A DNA stretch of 58,115 nt from Anaerolineae bacterium (lineage in GTDB: Bacteria > Chloroflexota > Anaerolineae > DRVO01), in contig JABLXR010000023.1 in the NCBI GenBank assembly GCA_013178015.1, positions 1 to 58,115 on the forward strand, read 5' to 3'. Positions 35,159 through 45,490 of this stretch are shown here, in pieces (within the stretch, counting starts at the first letter, position 1; every line of letters begins with the position of its first letter). The notes under the pieces are model-generated. The model had not been told where the DNA came from. It did no database searches and was given only the letters and a program-made list of their open reading frames with translations. The translations under genes were made by a program, and so were the position numbers.

Positions 35159-35384
35159 TGCCTATCCTCCCTGGCAGCGAGAGATGCCAGTGTACCACGC
35201 CCCCGCCTCGCTGCCGATCAGCGTCCGCCCTGGTCCCCGGCCAGGGGATCTGGACTTCAGGAGGCTTCTCTTGACCTCGGCTTTCGTTGTGGCATGATGG
35301 CTGCATCTCAGCTGAATGCCGGCGGAGCTTCATCGCTTCCGCGGGCGACTGAAAGGCTTCCACCAACTCTGTGGAGGATGCGCA

Positions 35385-37238
35385 GTGGATAGACCCGCTC
35401 TGGGCAGCGTTCCCTTCTTTAGCAGCTTTGGTGCCGAGGCGCTGGAGTTCCTGGAACAACGGCTGGAACCGGTGCAAGTGGAGCCGGGCGCTTTTCTCAT
35501 GCGGTGCAATGAAGCCGCCGGGCACGCGTTCGTCGTCTCTCAAGGTCGCCTGCGCCTGCTAGACGCGAGCGGCCGCCAGCTGGCCTGGCTCGGGCCTGGC
35601 AGCGTGGTGGGCGAAGCGGATGCACTCTCGGGAGGACATTACTCGGTCGGGGCCGAGGCGGTTACCGCCGTGAGCGCCTGGGCCCTGCCGGTGGAGGCTA
35701 TACGGCGAGTTGTCCGCCGGTTCCCGGAGGAGCTCCTCACGCTGGAGCGGACACTGGGATACCGGCCCCGGGAGGCGTTGCGCGGGTTTGCCGAGTGGCT
35801 CGCCGAGATGGAGCCGTTCCGAGGCGGGGACACCGACGAACTGATCCAGCTAGCGTCCCAGCTGCAACCGATGGTGCTCGAACCCGGTGAGGAGCTGGGC
35901 GAGCGCAGCCAATCGCGCCTGGTGGTGGTGCAGTCCGGTGAAGTTGACGCTCGGCAGGAAGCGGGCGAGCCTCCGGTGGAGCGGCAGGGTGGCTCGATCT
36001 TCGCCGAGGGCTCCGTGCTCCTCAGCGACGCTGGGGCAGTCGAGGGTCGGGTCACCGCCCCCACTCTGGCCTGGTACCTGCCGGAGCACGCCTACTCCCA
36101 GCAGCGATGGGAGGGCTTCGGGCTACTCGATCGGTTGTTCCCCCAAGCGACCGAATGGACGGCGGCCTCCGGCGCGAAGGAGGCTAGGGCGCCGCGAGGA
36201 GACGCCGCGGGCCCGGGGAAGGCCAGTTCGCGGGCTGATGCTGGGAGCGTGGGTCCGGGGGTTCGGCGCTTGCCCCCGGGCCTCGCCATCCGGCTGGTCC
36301 TGGCCGTGGTGCTGGGCGTGCCCCTCCTGATGGCCTGTGCCAGAGGGATGTATGCGTCTGTGCCGGGCTTCGGCGGCGTGAACCCTACGCGGGACCTGAG
36401 CCGGTATCGCGAGACGGCCATCGCCATGACCCCGATGGTGCTGGCTGAGGCCCTCACCCCGACTCCGACCTTCGCTCCATCGCCCACCCCCGCTCCCACT
36501 GACACGACCGTGCCCACGCCCACGTCGGTGCCCGAGACAGCGACTGCGGTGCCCACCGAGACCCCGGCGCCCACGGATACGCCCGAGCCAACCGACACGC
36601 CTGAGCCCACAGACACTCCACAACCGGCGCCCGAGTCGGTTCCGCTGGCGGCTGTCACCACGCCGGAAGGGGAGCAGGCACCTCCGCCGACGCCGGAGCA
36701 GGAGAGCGAGCCTACTCCCGAACCCACGCCTTTGCCACCACCTCCCGACACGCCGACGCCTGTCCCGCCAGAGCAGCCGGTGGAGGTAGGCATAAGGGCG
36801 TACGACGAGTACGGGAACGAGGTACCCCTAGAGGCACTGCAGGCCAAGTACGGCTTCCACATTAGGAGGGCCGAGGTGCAGTCAGGGCAGCAGGTCTTTC
36901 GGGTGGTGGCCCTGCGGGAAGTGGTGGGCCCAGCCACCATCGTGGTGCGGACCAACCCGCACCAGCCCGTTGCCTTTCACTGGCCGGGCGCCCCGGCCCA
37001 ACCCAACGCGGGGCACGACTGGGATGGCTCCTACGAAATGGGCGTCACCAACGAGCAGGGGGAGGTCGGCTTCGGAATGGGCCGTGGCTCCTACATTCAG
37101 GACCTGAGCGCCGGCGGTCCCCACGGGGTCTGGGTGTGCTCCGCCATTCCCTCGGATGCAGTGTTCGGGCTGGGCATGCTGGGCGGGACGGTGCACGCGC
37201 ACGTGGATGTGGAGTTTCAGCTAGCCACGGCGCCATGA
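35385..37238 (+). CDS. Two cNMP-type domains, one span, Thr/Pro stalk and outside beta domain
   Basis: The 617-residue protein has two cyclic-nucleotide-binding-like beta domains (about 8-110 and 140-240). The first has PFFSSFGAEALEFL and PGSVVGEADALSGG, but no Arg where the phosphate-binding Arg should be; the second is weaker. One membrane span (299-318) follows Arg-rich sequence. A stalk of Pro/Thr/Glu repeats (about 345-465) leads to a beta domain (467-617) with NEQGEVGFGMG, GGPHGVWV and GLGMLGGTVHAHVD. The topology should be N inside, C outside. I chose GTG 35385, 7 bases after GGAGG. It looks like a signal or anchoring device that links the cell interior and the surface; function unknown. 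Confidence 0.8.
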   Translation: MDRPALGSVPFFSSFGAEALEFLEQRLEPVQVEPGAFLMRCNEAAGHAFVVSQGRLRLLDASGRQLAWLGPGSVVGEADALSGGHYSVGAEAVTAVSAWALPVEAIRRVVRRFPEELLTLERTLGYRPREALRGFAEWLAEMEPFRGGDTDELIQLASQLQPMVLEPGEELGERSQSRLVVVQSGEVDARQEAGEPPVERQGGSIFAEGSVLLSDAGAVEGRVTAPTLAWYLPEHAYSQQRWEGFGLLDRLFPQATEWTAASGAKEARAPRGDAAGPGKASSRADAGSVGPGVRRLPPGLAIRLVLAVVLGVPLLMACARGMYASVPGFGGVNPTRDLSRYRETAIAMTPMVLAEALTPTPTFAPSPTPAPTDTTVPTPTSVPETATAVPTETPAPTDTPEPTDTPEPTDTPQPAPESVPLAAVTTPEGEQAPPPTPEQESEPTPEPTPLPPPPDTPTPVPPEQPVEVGIRAYDEYGNEVPLEALQAKYGFHIRRAEVQSGQQVFRVVALREVVGPATIVVRTNPHQPVAFHWPGAPAQPNAGHDWDGSYEMGVTNEQGEVGFGMGRGSYIQDLSAGGPHGVWVCSAIPSDAVFGLGMLGGTVHAHVDVEFQLATAP

Positions 37239-37397: not shown

Positions 37398-39644
37398 ATG
37401 CCTGGACTCCGCTTCCGACGTGCCGCACTGAGAGCCCAGGCGCCTAGCGTTCGCCTGTCGGATGCGGTTCTGCCGCGGCTGGCCTTCTCCCTGCTCTTCC
37501 TCTGGGGCTGGCGCACCCCGGATATCGTCCACTCGATACCCGGTATGGCGGACGTCCTGGAGGTGCTGTGGGGGGTCCGGTGGTATGAGGCCTGCCTTCT
37601 GGAGAGAGGCGTCTCCCCTCTCTACAGCGATCTGATCGCCCACCCGCACGGGTGGCACACGGCCACTCTCGCCCACACCCCGTTCCTCTTCCTGCTCATG
37701 CTCCCTCTGAGCCAGTTCGCCGGGCCCGCATTGGCCTACAATGTCCTTGCCATCGCGTCCTCGGTAGTTGCTTTCGAAGGGGCATCCCGAGTGGCCGGCC
37801 GGTTCACCGAAAGCCGGTTGGCGGCCAGTCTGGTGGGCTTGGTGTTCGCCTTCGTGGGCATGCGCTGGTTCCGGGTGAGTCAGGGCCACCTGAACGTGCT
37901 GTGGCTGTCGGCCCTCCTGCCCTGGCTGCTCTGGGCGCTGGAGGGAGCGCGGCGCAGCCGGAGCCGGGCAGGTACGTGCCGATGGCTGCGGCTGTCCGGA
38001 GTGATCTGGGGCCTGGGCAGCTGCTTCTCGCTCTATGGACTGTTCCTGGGTGGCTCGTGCCTGCTCATCTGGGGTCGGGAGATACTCCGGCCCAGGCGCA
38101 TGGCACAGGCAGCCGCCACTGCCCTCATGGCGCTGAGCATCACCCTGCCGCTGATCCTGCTCTACCGCGCCGGGACGGAGCAGGATGGCGTCATCTCCCT
38201 GGGGCTGTCGCACGTCCTGCATTGGGGGGCCAGCCTGAACAGCCTGGTGGCCCTGAATGTGCACCACCCCATTTCGCTCCTACAGCGGGTCGCCCGGAGC
38301 ATCTACTCCGGGCCTTACGACGAGTCCGGGATGTCCAACCTAGGCCTGGTGGCCTGGGCCTTCGGGGCGCTGGGACTGTGGAGGGCAATGAGGGGACGAA
38401 GCGGGGGCAGCAACCTGGCCGCGCTGGCGGTTGGAGGGGTCCTTCTGTCCTGTGGGCTGCTGCTCAAGTGGAACGGGGAGGCGGTGCTGCTCCCGGCTCT
38501 ACGCCCCCTCAACGAGGCCATCTGGAAGCTGGGCCACCTCCTGAAGCCCGGCCTCTTCACCTCGGGGCAAGCACAGCCGCCATTCGATGGGGGGGTGCCG
38601 CTGCCTGGCTTCCTCCTAACGGCGGTAGTGCCGTTCTGGGAGCACGGCCGGGTCATGGCCCGGTACGCTTTCGTCGGTGGCATTGGGCTGATGGTGCTGG
38701 CGGCGCGGGAGATAGAGACACTGCCTCGGGTCGCCCGGTACCTAGTGGCGCTCATCTGGCTGTTGGAGACTTTGCCCCTACCTGCGTTCGGCGTGCCAGT
38801 GCCGTCGGCCCCCCATCCCGCTTATGCCTGGCTGCTGCAGCAAGAGCGCGACCGCAGCTGGGGCATCGTGGACGTCGCCTACCCCACCCTGATGACCGAT
38901 CCCGGCATCCTCTACGGGACCAGCCTTCACGGGATCCCGACGGCGTCCGGCGGCCGCCCGTACCTGCCTGGCCGCGTCCGCACACTGCACCAGTTCCTGT
39001 CAGAAGACCCACAAGCCCTGGGCTCCCCCAAGGCGGGGGTGGTGCTCCGGAGCTACGACGTGCGCTACCTACTCCTCCACCTGATGGGCGAGGAAGAGCG
39101 CTGGATGTGGGACCTGGTGGTGACGAATCCGGCCCTTGATCCGGTGGGCTGCTTCGAGCCGCCGGAGGGACCCTCGCCCTGGCCGCACCCGATCTGCATC
39201 GCTCAGGTGGATGGAGCCGGTGCGAACGGCGATTCCCCTCCCTTGGACGAGCTGATCCTGCTCCGAGGGTGGTCGGAGCCGGAGGATTGGGGAGTGTGGG
39301 CGGAGGGGACCGAATCGAGCGCCAGATGGCTGGCGGCCGACCGAAGGGACTACCGCCTGGGCGTGGAGGCCTTTCCCCTGGCAGTGCCGGGGCGGAGCCA
39401 GCACGTCGCCATCGAGATCAACGGGAAGCCCCTGACGGCCCATCGCTGGACTGACTGCGAGACCTGGAGTGCCGAGGTGGAAGTGCCGGCGGAGCTGATG
39501 GACAAGGGCTGGAACGAGTTGGTCCTGCGCTATGGGTACGCCGCCCGGCCCTCGGACCTGCCCGAGTCACACACGGACGATGCCCGGTTGCTCTCGGTGG
39601 GCTTCGTCCGGCTGGAGCTTCTTGGCGACGGCGATCAGCAGTGA
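37398..39644 (+). CDS. Large multi-pass membrane protein, GT-C glycosyltransferase-like
   Basis: The 748-residue protein has about ten membrane segments from residue 20 to 460 and a C-terminal soluble part (from about 460) that ends in a beta-sandwich-like segment (HVAIEINGKPLTAH and WNELVLRYGYA). The first loop (SPLYSDLIAHPHGWHTATLAH) with acidic and His residues resembles the active loop of lipid-sugar-dependent GT-C enzymes, but no classical DxD is plain. The start ATG 37398 has GGGGAGG 6 bases upstream. It follows the cNMP-domain protein by 159 bases on the same strand and may be co-transcribed. Enzyme activity is an inference. Confidence 0.7.
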   Translation: MPGLRFRRAALRAQAPSVRLSDAVLPRLAFSLLFLWGWRTPDIVHSIPGMADVLEVLWGVRWYEACLLERGVSPLYSDLIAHPHGWHTATLAHTPFLFLLMLPLSQFAGPALAYNVLAIASSVVAFEGASRVAGRFTESRLAASLVGLVFAFVGMRWFRVSQGHLNVLWLSALLPWLLWALEGARRSRSRAGTCRWLRLSGVIWGLGSCFSLYGLFLGGSCLLIWGREILRPRRMAQAAATALMALSITLPLILLYRAGTEQDGVISLGLSHVLHWGASLNSLVALNVHHPISLLQRVARSIYSGPYDESGMSNLGLVAWAFGALGLWRAMRGRSGGSNLAALAVGGVLLSCGLLLKWNGEAVLLPALRPLNEAIWKLGHLLKPGLFTSGQAQPPFDGGVPLPGFLLTAVVPFWEHGRVMARYAFVGGIGLMVLAAREIETLPRVARYLVALIWLLETLPLPAFGVPVPSAPHPAYAWLLQQERDRSWGIVDVAYPTLMTDPGILYGTSLHGIPTASGGRPYLPGRVRTLHQFLSEDPQALGSPKAGVVLRSYDVRYLLLHLMGEEERWMWDLVVTNPALDPVGCFEPPEGPSPWPHPICIAQVDGAGANGDSPPLDELILLRGWSEPEDWGVWAEGTESSARWLAADRRDYRLGVEAFPLAVPGRSQHVAIEINGKPLTAHRWTDCETWSAEVEVPAELMDKGWNELVLRYGYAARPSDLPESHTDDARLLSVGFVRLELLGDGDQQ

Positions 39645-43054: not shown

Positions 43055-45490
43055 CTACCCCCGCAACACCAATCGCCCCTCGGCGTTAGCCTCGACCTTG
43101 TCCCTCGACCAGAGCATGGGGTGATAGTGGCCCTCTCGCCAGAGGGAGATCATGTCGTCGTAGTGAGGGCTGGCGGGATGGCCGGACTGGCCCGTGGGCA
43201 GGATGGCGCGGCTGGAGTCCCAGTCGGAGAGGTCCACGATCATGCGCCACGAAGGGCCGGCAGAGTAGTCGTTGAGGGGAAGCCGAGGCAGGTAGAAAGA
43301 GGCATTGACGGTGGTCTGGTCGCCGCCCACAGGGTAGGGGCCGCGGTCCAGCAGGCGGCTCAAGGGACGGCGCTGGCCCAAGGCGTGGTGGAAGCGGAGG
43401 CGATGCAGGTCGCCCCACCGCCAGCGGGTGAGGTCCTCGCCGTGGTGGTGGGTCAGGTAGGCGAGGGTGTCGTTCAGGGCCCCGGCCAGGATGTCCTCGC
43501 GCGACAGAGGGTTGCCGTCTCTGTCGCGGAACCACTCCCGCTCGTCCTCTTCCAGCAGACAGCGAAGGACCTGGCGGCTGTTATCCACCTGCAGGCCGCT
43601 GTAGTGGAACAGGGGGCCCAGGCTGAGGCCCAGGTAGCGCTCAGTGAGGTCCCCCAGCCACGGGCGGAAGACGCGCTCGGCGGCGAAGTGCTCCACCAGC
43701 TTATGGACGGTGGCGGGCACGGAGTCAGGGGTCAGCTCGCAATTCCATTCGCGCAGGAGGGTCAGGACCCGGGCCGCGCGAGGACGATTGTCCTGCAGCG
43801 CCGGGTGCTCGAGCAGGGTGGGGGCGAGGGAAGTGAGGAGGCGCCGGAAGGTCTGGGCGGGGAGCGAGTGAACGTCGTTCTGGATGCGGGCGAAGTCGTC
43901 GGCCGAGAGGCGGTCTTTCTCCAGCAGCAAGTCGGCGATGCGGCGGGCACGGAAGCCGTCGTACTGCTCGCAGGAGAAGCAGTGCGGGTACTCCAGGCCC
44001 GCGACCTTGTTATTGGCGCTGACGACGTAGTGCGTCTTGGGGTTGAGGGCGTGGGGAAGCTCCTCGAAGGGTATCCAGCCCTGCCACTCGTTCTCGTCTT
44101 CCCAGCCGGGCACGGGCACCAGCCCCAGTCGCCCCGGTCGGAGGGGCACCTTTCCGGGGACGTAGAGGCCGATGTTGCCCTCGACATCGGCGTAGACGAA
44201 GTTCTGCGAGGGACAGTCGAAATCGCGGAGCGCCTGGGTGAACTCGTCCCAGTTGCGGGCACGGTTGAGGGCCAGGACGGAGCGGGATAGGTGGGAAGGT
44301 TCGTGTCCAGTCCAGCGGAGGGATAGGGCGACGCGGCTGCTCTCACTGTCGAGGGGCAGCACCGACGTGACCACGGGGCCATGCCGCGTCTTGGTGACCT
44401 CCAGGAGGCGGGGAGCTGCCTCGCCGCGCACGCGGATGTACTCGTGGTGGATGGTAGCCTGCTCCCAGGTGTCACCGGTTCGGTACAGGGTGGAATCATC
44501 GGGGTGGAACCGCTCCAGGTAGAGGTCCTGGGTGTCCGGGAGGGAGGCGGTGACGCCCCAGGCGATGCGGTCGTTGTGGCCGATGACCACGCCGGGGACG
44601 CCCGGGAAGGTGACGCCGGTGACCTCAAGGTCGGGGGCGCTCAGGTGGTTCTCGTACCAGACGGCGGGGATGTCCAGCCCCAGGTGGGGGTCGTTGGCGA
44701 GGAGGGGCATGCCGGTGGCCGACTTATGCCCGTCCACCACCCAGTTGTTGCTGAGGCCCTGGTAGCGGAGGGCGGGCAGCCAAGCGCGAGCGCGGTCGAA
44801 CTCCTCCAGGAGCTGGGCGGCAAGGTCGGCGCCGGTCTGGTCAGGCAGGACGAGGGGATTGTCGGCGGGGTAGTCTCCCCGAAGGCGGGCGGCGCACTCG
44901 GGGCCGAGGTGCGAGATGAGAGCAGCGTTGAGGACCTCCTGCTCCCAGTTGTGGGAGAGGATCCAGGCCTGCATCCGGCCCCAGGCCAGGGTATCTAGGG
45001 GTTGCCAGGGTTCGGGGGCGGTGCGGAGGAGCTGGAACTCCAGGGGCAGGGCGGAGGTGTGGTGCCTGAGCCAGCAGTTGACGCCGTCGGCGTAGGCTTG
45101 CAGGGCATCGAGAGTATCGGAGTCGGTCAGGCGGAGGTCGCGTTGGGCGGCTCGGGTCAGGCCGAGGGTACGGAAAAGGCGATCGGCCTCGAAGGCAGGT
45201 GGGCCGACGATCTCGGCCAGACGGCCGTGTGCCAGCCGGCGGCTGAACTCCATCTGCCACAGGCGGTCCTGGGCGTGGACGTAGCCCTGGGCAAAGAGAA
45301 GGTCGTGCTGGTTGAGGGCATAGATGTGGGGCACTCCCCAGCGGTCGCGTATGATCTCGACGGGATGATCCAGGCCGTGGGCGGCCTCGACGCCGTCGGT
45401 CTTGGGTAGGGGGCGGCGGTAGAGGTAGCGGAGTAGGGCCGTCGCAGCGGTCAGGGCGGCCGCGATCACAAGGGTTCTAGAGTGTCTCAT
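43055..45490 (-). CDS. Penicillin acylase-family Ntn hydrolase
   Basis: The 811-residue precursor has an N-terminal membrane or signal segment (about 5-22), an alpha part with IIRDRWGVPHIYA and FAQGYVHAQDRLWQME, and the self-cleavage and nucleophile site at Ser247 in GLSNNWVVDGHKSATGMP. The beta part has NDPHLGLDIPAVWYE and a long C-terminus. Such S45 enzymes cut amides, including acyl-homoserine lactones and beta-lactam side chains. Export with processing outside the membrane is likely. Its start ATG 45490 has a GAGG site nearby. It is the largest gene here, and an open frame opposite it is only its shadow. Confidence 0.92.
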   Translation of the reverse strand: MRHSRTLVIAAALTAATALLRYLYRRPLPKTDGVEAAHGLDHPVEIIRDRWGVPHIYALNQHDLLFAQGYVHAQDRLWQMEFSRRLAHGRLAEIVGPPAFEADRLFRTLGLTRAAQRDLRLTDSDTLDALQAYADGVNCWLRHHTSALPLEFQLLRTAPEPWQPLDTLAWGRMQAWILSHNWEQEVLNAALISHLGPECAARLRGDYPADNPLVLPDQTGADLAAQLLEEFDRARAWLPALRYQGLSNNWVVDGHKSATGMPLLANDPHLGLDIPAVWYENHLSAPDLEVTGVTFPGVPGVVIGHNDRIAWGVTASLPDTQDLYLERFHPDDSTLYRTGDTWEQATIHHEYIRVRGEAAPRLLEVTKTRHGPVVTSVLPLDSESSRVALSLRWTGHEPSHLSRSVLALNRARNWDEFTQALRDFDCPSQNFVYADVEGNIGLYVPGKVPLRPGRLGLVPVPGWEDENEWQGWIPFEELPHALNPKTHYVVSANNKVAGLEYPHCFSCEQYDGFRARRIADLLLEKDRLSADDFARIQNDVHSLPAQTFRRLLTSLAPTLLEHPALQDNRPRAARVLTLLREWNCELTPDSVPATVHKLVEHFAAERVFRPWLGDLTERYLGLSLGPLFHYSGLQVDNSRQVLRCLLEEDEREWFRDRDGNPLSREDILAGALNDTLAYLTHHHGEDLTRWRWGDLHRLRFHHALGQRRPLSRLLDRGPYPVGGDQTTVNASFYLPRLPLNDYSAGPSWRMIVDLSDWDSSRAILPTGQSGHPASPHYDDMISLWREGHYHPMLWSRDKVEANAEGRLVLRG

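Follow-up and report, generated by a model that had tools for sequence, protein, structure and literature searches.

A single gene at 35385–37238 (forward strand) of the window, the 58,115-nucleotide stretch of DNA that was analysed, encodes two cyclic-nucleotide-binding-type domains (cNBDs), one membrane span, a Thr/Pro stalk and an outside beta domain in one chain. This architecture is real, widespread in Anaerolineae and apparently undescribed; no description of such a family was found among open-licence papers. By sequence comparison, it belongs as a diverged duplicate, with modules 3 and 4 missing, to a family with four tandem cNBDs, and the window protein is read here, tentatively and at a little short of even confidence, as a stalked surface binding protein joined to a cNMP-independent cytoplasmic pseudo-receptor.

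Gene integrity and the four-cNBD family

The window gene is a single stop-free frame running on the forward strand from either an ATG at 35316 (640 aa) or a GTG at 35385 (617 aa) to a stop at 37238. The GTG, chosen in an earlier sequence-only reading of this DNA, is the better start because the starts of the paralogs L036 and L039 match there, and it is preceded by GGAGG. Residue numbers given here follow the 640-residue frame, from which 23 is subtracted for numbering from the GTG.

The sequence-only reading had proposed the pair of cNBDs, span, stalk and outside beta domain as one protein, and had named a frame error joining two genes, for instance near residue 290, as what would overturn it. 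Codon-position GC is even across all five segments of the gene, and L036 (558 aa, on contig C12 of the same genome) can be aligned at 44% to the window protein over residues 18–451, through both cNBDs and the span and into the stalk. The same domain order was recovered by a search of related genomes in 55 of 63 complete relatives (window protein included), and the build is therefore a family trait, given that the paralog also aligns across the junction. Two joined genes were accordingly rejected; nothing in the frame, the codon-position GC or the comparisons with paralog and relatives spoke for a frame or assembly artefact, which is very improbable. Relatives with separate genes, the second condition named in the earlier reading, turned out to be a minority at most: 8 of the 63 (seven four-cNBD proteins and one two-cNBD protein) are without a recognised outside domain, and at one of these, L108, outside-type domains are found on two neighbouring genes. 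Directly downstream of the window gene, 37398–39644 (forward strand) encodes a predicted 748-aa protein with many hydrophobic stretches and no Pfam match, and further on the reverse strand at 43055–45490 encodes a full-length member of the penicillin amidase family (PF01804, E 1e-241).

A search of the class with the window protein gave matches in 271 of 298 genomes, mostly to cNBDs alone. Reading of the loci revealed a family in which four cNBDs in tandem are followed by one span, a Thr/Pro stalk and, mostly, an outside domain, and a profile of the four-cNBD region found it in 128 of 396 Anaerolineae genomes at E ≤ 1e-60. In a separate draw of 301 genomes from the phylum, four matches to this profile were obtained, the two outside the class covering only half of it. 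In all 63 complete proteins, the window protein among them, the last cNBD is followed by a span; the window protein itself is a reduced relative with two modules (best matching 1 and 2) rather than four with a canonical module 3. One further four-cNBD gene (L119:4118-7742) is split over several open frames and is apparently decayed or misassembled.

The cytoplasmic modules and their ligand sites

The first domain, cNBD1 (35412–35750, forward strand; residues 33–145), places the protein in PF00027 above the curated cut-off (E 1.3e-15; 57.6 bits against 27.5) and is the counterpart of module 1 in the four-module family, scoring 94.8 with the module 1 HMM and 74.5, 50.1 and 63.0 with the others. 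The strongly diverged cNBD2 (35817–36095, forward strand; residues 168–260) lies below Pfam detection and was recovered only with a family HMM built from the relatives (E 8e-13); its best score, 28.0 with module 2, is so close to the remaining 21.4, 19.6 and 22.8 that the assignment is weak for the window copy. NCBIfam returned only sub-threshold matches, to cNBD-containing families. No helix-turn-helix of CRP/FNR regulators was matched above cut-off in Pfam or NCBIfam, and no cytoplasmic anti-sigma domain of the RsgI type is present, PF00027 being the only family found by Pfam. Structure prediction of the cNBD half, as the earlier reading had suggested, gave a model that is weak (pLDDT 62.5, pTM 0.46, from three sequences) and whose best Foldseek matches are nonetheless PKA and PKG regulatory subunits with tandem CNB domains (E 8e-16).

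The sequence-only reading had also noted that the phosphate-binding Arg is missing, and this loss is real at both sites. The cassette of cNBD1 (35610–35651, forward strand) has Glu100, with Asp102 at the position of PKA Ala202 and Tyr109 at that of Arg209, whereas the degenerate cassette of cNBD2 (36003–36050, forward strand) has Glu231 and Gly240 at the Arg position. The Glu of a functional cNMP receptor is thus present without its Arg, and neither site is predicted to be cNMP-competent. The host genome contains one class III cyclase match, so that a cyclic nucleotide is probably made. The suggestion that the protein senses something else or acts as a scaffold still appears the right reading for the window copy, while a cyclic-nucleotide-driven device looks unlikely in it.

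The relatives present a different picture. Across an alignment of 60 four-module proteins, the phosphate-binding Arg is found in 21 of the module 1 sequences, in none of module 2, in 51 of module 3 and in 24 of module 4, and 51 of the 60 proteins have at least one module that combines Glu and Arg with no acid at the Ala202 position. In these proteins module 3 would bind a cyclic nucleotide and the tandem array would change state, a change that the span could relay to the surface part or to partners in the membrane. Four-domain relatives with an intact module 3 seem the better candidates for inside-to-outside signalling, and the window copy the worst placed for a cNMP-driven device, because it is a reduced and diverged member of the family. 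Its two remaining cNBDs would no longer bind cyclic nucleotides and may instead form a platform for oligomerisation or docking, by which the surface domain would be positioned or clustered.

Lack of the Arg does not prevent a cNBD from binding other nucleotides or nucleosides. The PKA of kinetoplastids, including trypanosomes, has Glu at the Ala202 position and a polar residue in place of the Arg, and the ligands of its sites are inosine, guanosine and adenosine rather than cAMP (PMC10959531). Within the window protein only site 1 resembles these sites, with Asp102 as the acid at the Ala202 position, which is Glu in the known sites, and Tyr109 instead of Arg at position 209. It could accordingly be proposed that site 1, which keeps the ribose-binding Glu100, takes a purine nucleoside or a similar uncharged ligand and thereby controls the surface domain from the inside. 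As 52 of the 60 relatives have the acid, Asp or Glu, in module 1, it is not drift, but Asp is shorter than Glu, the model of site 1 is weak, and in 18 of the 60 module 1 sequences Asp occurs together with Arg, so that the acid is not by itself the mark of a nucleoside site. We consider such a switch unlikely, and the parallel with kinetoplastid PKA is a lead, not a demonstration. Crystal structures of the kinetoplastid regulatory subunit are among the best fold matches of the cNBD half, although that protein is a soluble subunit of a eukaryotic kinase, has no span and carries Glu rather than Asp.

A broader proposal would see the whole family as a bacterial class of inside-to-outside receptors, in which unequal tandem cNBDs (site 1 with an acid, site 2 dead, site 3 canonical) read cytoplasmic nucleotides and, by way of span and stalk, control the state of the surface binding domain or its display. 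The window copy would then be a specialised duplicate that has lost the cyclic-nucleotide input and kept a putative nucleoside site. This, too, is improbable at present, with roughly the same standing as the nucleoside switch.

Span, stalk and outside domain

A Kyte-Doolittle scan found a single membrane span at 36282–36338 (forward strand; residues 323–341). It is preceded by RRLPPGLAIR, which by the positive-inside rule would place the N-terminus inside and, by inference, the C-terminal domain outside. The Thr/Pro stalk follows at 36441–36773 (forward strand; residues 376–486) and contains 37 Pro and 26 Thr (63 of 111 residues); its existence agrees with the earlier reading, which had given it 120 residues where 111 are measured. 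The stalk start, TPTFAPSPTP, is shared with the paralogs, the form T[PA]TFAPSPT being common to all copies of family f1, to which the window protein belongs.

Beyond the stalk lies the outside domain (36789–37229, forward strand; residues 492–638), which was assigned to type A by an HMM match of 1e-56. Three related types, A, B and C, which cross-match in HMM searches, can be distinguished among the outside domains of the family. Prediction for this end, again a check suggested earlier, modelled the C-terminal 155 residues as a beta-rich sandwich (pLDDT 81.7, pTM 0.80). The motifs that had been singled out as conserved-looking are indeed so, GFGMG and GLGMLGGT.H.H.D being kept in relatives at 36–44% identity, and among the positions that do not vary in ten sequences are Gly and Met of GMLGG and T.H.H.D. 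This conservation makes it plausible that the outside domain holds a ligand site.

Assignment of the domain to a known fold was rejected: Foldseek found nothing in the PDB at E ≤ 0.001 (best 0.11; TM ≤ 0.30 among the matches listed), and HMM comparison of the outside domains with PDB sequences gave only weak, sub-threshold matches to adhesin or Ig-like domains, at E 0.019 and above. There is likewise no match in Pfam and none in PHROGs; a check for carbohydrate-binding modules yielded only these sub-threshold similarities. Type A domains were found alone, duplicated, behind a signal-like segment, or C-terminal to an N-terminal domain without family match. The named records that encode them are metagenome-assembled genomes of Chloroflexota/Anaerolineae. 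One viral contig from IMG/VR (L063:3987-5639) encodes a 550-aa protein in which a type A domain follows a domain of ~320 residues on a Pro-rich linker. The partner domains in this protein and in L053 matched no Pfam family; a glycoside hydrolase was considered for them and dropped, since no NCBIfam match was found for L063 either and one PDB match, to Scone-R, was weak (E 0.0016).

Because the outside domain is also found alone, duplicated and behind the unrelated ~320-residue domain on its Pro-rich linker, it is proposed to bind a glycan or envelope polymer. A binding role of some kind is inferred from company and conservation together; that the ligand would be a glycan is a guess from domain company and the weakest step of the explanation. 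As a whole, the window protein would be a single-pass protein with its N-terminus inside, presenting a ligand-binding beta-sandwich at the cell surface on a stiff Thr/Pro stalk.

A simpler possibility is that the protein is a plain surface adhesin or wall-binding protein, with its degenerate cNBDs retained as a relic anchor only. The decay of cNBD2, the long stalk, an outside domain that is exchangeable among family members and the sub-threshold likeness to Ig-like adhesin domains would all fit. Site 1, however, still shows good conservation across the four f1 copies (E..DA...G..YS), and the relatives without an outside part retain four cNBDs and the span, which is the reverse of what a relic predicts. 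This alternative is therefore given a small probability, below that of the nucleoside switch, and the stalked binding protein with a pseudo-receptor inside remains the preferred reading.

Sigma loci, history of the window copy and known systems

Of 60 usable family loci, 44 have an ECF sigma factor gene no more than 3.5 kb upstream, in every case on the opposite strand, and the remaining 686 kb of fetched DNA contained no ECF gene of this subfamily. The next gene after the sigma gene encodes a zf-HC2 anti-sigma factor with spans of its own. In 45 of 60 loci a gene with an outside-type domain lies upstream on the same strand; in several of them its product starts like a lipoprotein and has an SH3 domain. 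In 43 of 45 intergenic regions the ECF sigma gene is separated from the cNBD operon by a tRNA-Leu(CAA) gene (e.g. L036:11175-11259, L055:7995-8079 and L067:9412-9498, as in most other family loci). On the ECF-reading strand a TATAAT box is present in 25 of 36 loci, 21 of them with an extended -10, compared with 0 of 36 on the other strand and 2% in shuffles. As this box lies 10–77 bases beyond the tRNA, an ECF transcript would cross the tRNA antisense. The first motif seen ahead of the cNBD operon was considered as an ECF-type promoter and rejected, being the tRNA gene itself; toward the operon, no conserved motif was found besides the tRNA promoter and the ECF-direction -10 box.

This company raises the possibility of signalling in the opposite direction, in which polymer binding by the surface domain would make the cytoplasmic array shift the balance of anti-sigma and sigma factors, in a way functionally comparable to RsgI or RsiV. 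The proximity and fixed orientation of the ECF and anti-sigma genes favour it, but the anti-sigma factor is a separate protein, no promoter motif leads into the cNBD operon, and the tRNA belongs to the same block, so that conserved order alone is no proof of joint function and shared synteny may by itself account for the sigma factor. Moreover, no such sigma/anti-sigma and tRNA-Leu locus is found near 35385, although paralog L036 has one. An outside-to-inside sensor is thus doubtful, about as much so as the nucleoside switch. At another sigma locus, L047, the cNBD protein is replaced by a protein of span, stalk and type A domain without cNBDs, adjoined by a second stalked type A protein (L047:5826-6842 and L047:7026-8051).

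The four f1 proteins have both cNBDs, the span and the stalk start in common. In a tree of cNBD1-2 the window copy groups with L036 and L039 (98/91), and then with L040 (100/100). The other copies carry a type B outside domain and lie at the sigma locus, whereas the window copy carries type A and lies away from it; no orthologue of it was found in two other genomes of the family (93% and 80% complete). These comparisons are most simply read as duplication and relocation together with an exchange of the outside domain, and the preferred stalked pseudo-receptor might work with the type B paralog from the sigma locus. Family f31 (L103 and L104) has also come down to two cNBDs, independently as seen at L103:6256-7989, and keeps modules 1 and 4 where the window protein keeps 1 and 2; reduction has therefore occurred at least twice.

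Most of the cNBD proteins known from bacteria act as transcription factors, channels, enzymes or soluble regulators. The window family shares its domain with the PF00027 proteins, among them CRP/FNR, CNG channels such as SthK and MlotiK1 and the regulatory subunits of PKA and PKG, and, in module 3 of the relatives, also the canonical cassette; the tandem arrangement is as in PKA and PKG. It differs in having a single span and an outside domain in place of a helix-turn-helix, channel or known kinase partner, and the window copy differs further from canonical members in the loss of both Arg residues. Popeye-domain (POPDC) proteins are likewise membrane proteins with a cytoplasmic nucleotide-binding domain, but they are eukaryotic muscle proteins with three spans and a Popeye domain rather than tandem PF00027 domains (PMC5872366). 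The RsgI-type anti-sigma factors of Clostridium thermocellum (PMC12203970) resemble the family in combining a cytoplasmic regulator, one span and an outside substrate-sensing domain and, for most relatives of the window protein, in their sigma-factor company. The window family, in contrast, has cNBDs where RsgI has its anti-sigma domain, the anti-sigma factor being encoded by a separate gene, and no sigma gene lies close to the window copy.

Because the modules divide into intact, dead and acid-bearing ones, the question of ligand can be put directly to the test on a small number of purified domains. To have cNBD arrays on the same chain as a surface domain, in about a third of the sampled Anaerolineae genomes, would be a new link between nucleotide signalling and the cell surface, in a class for which genetic tools are scarce.
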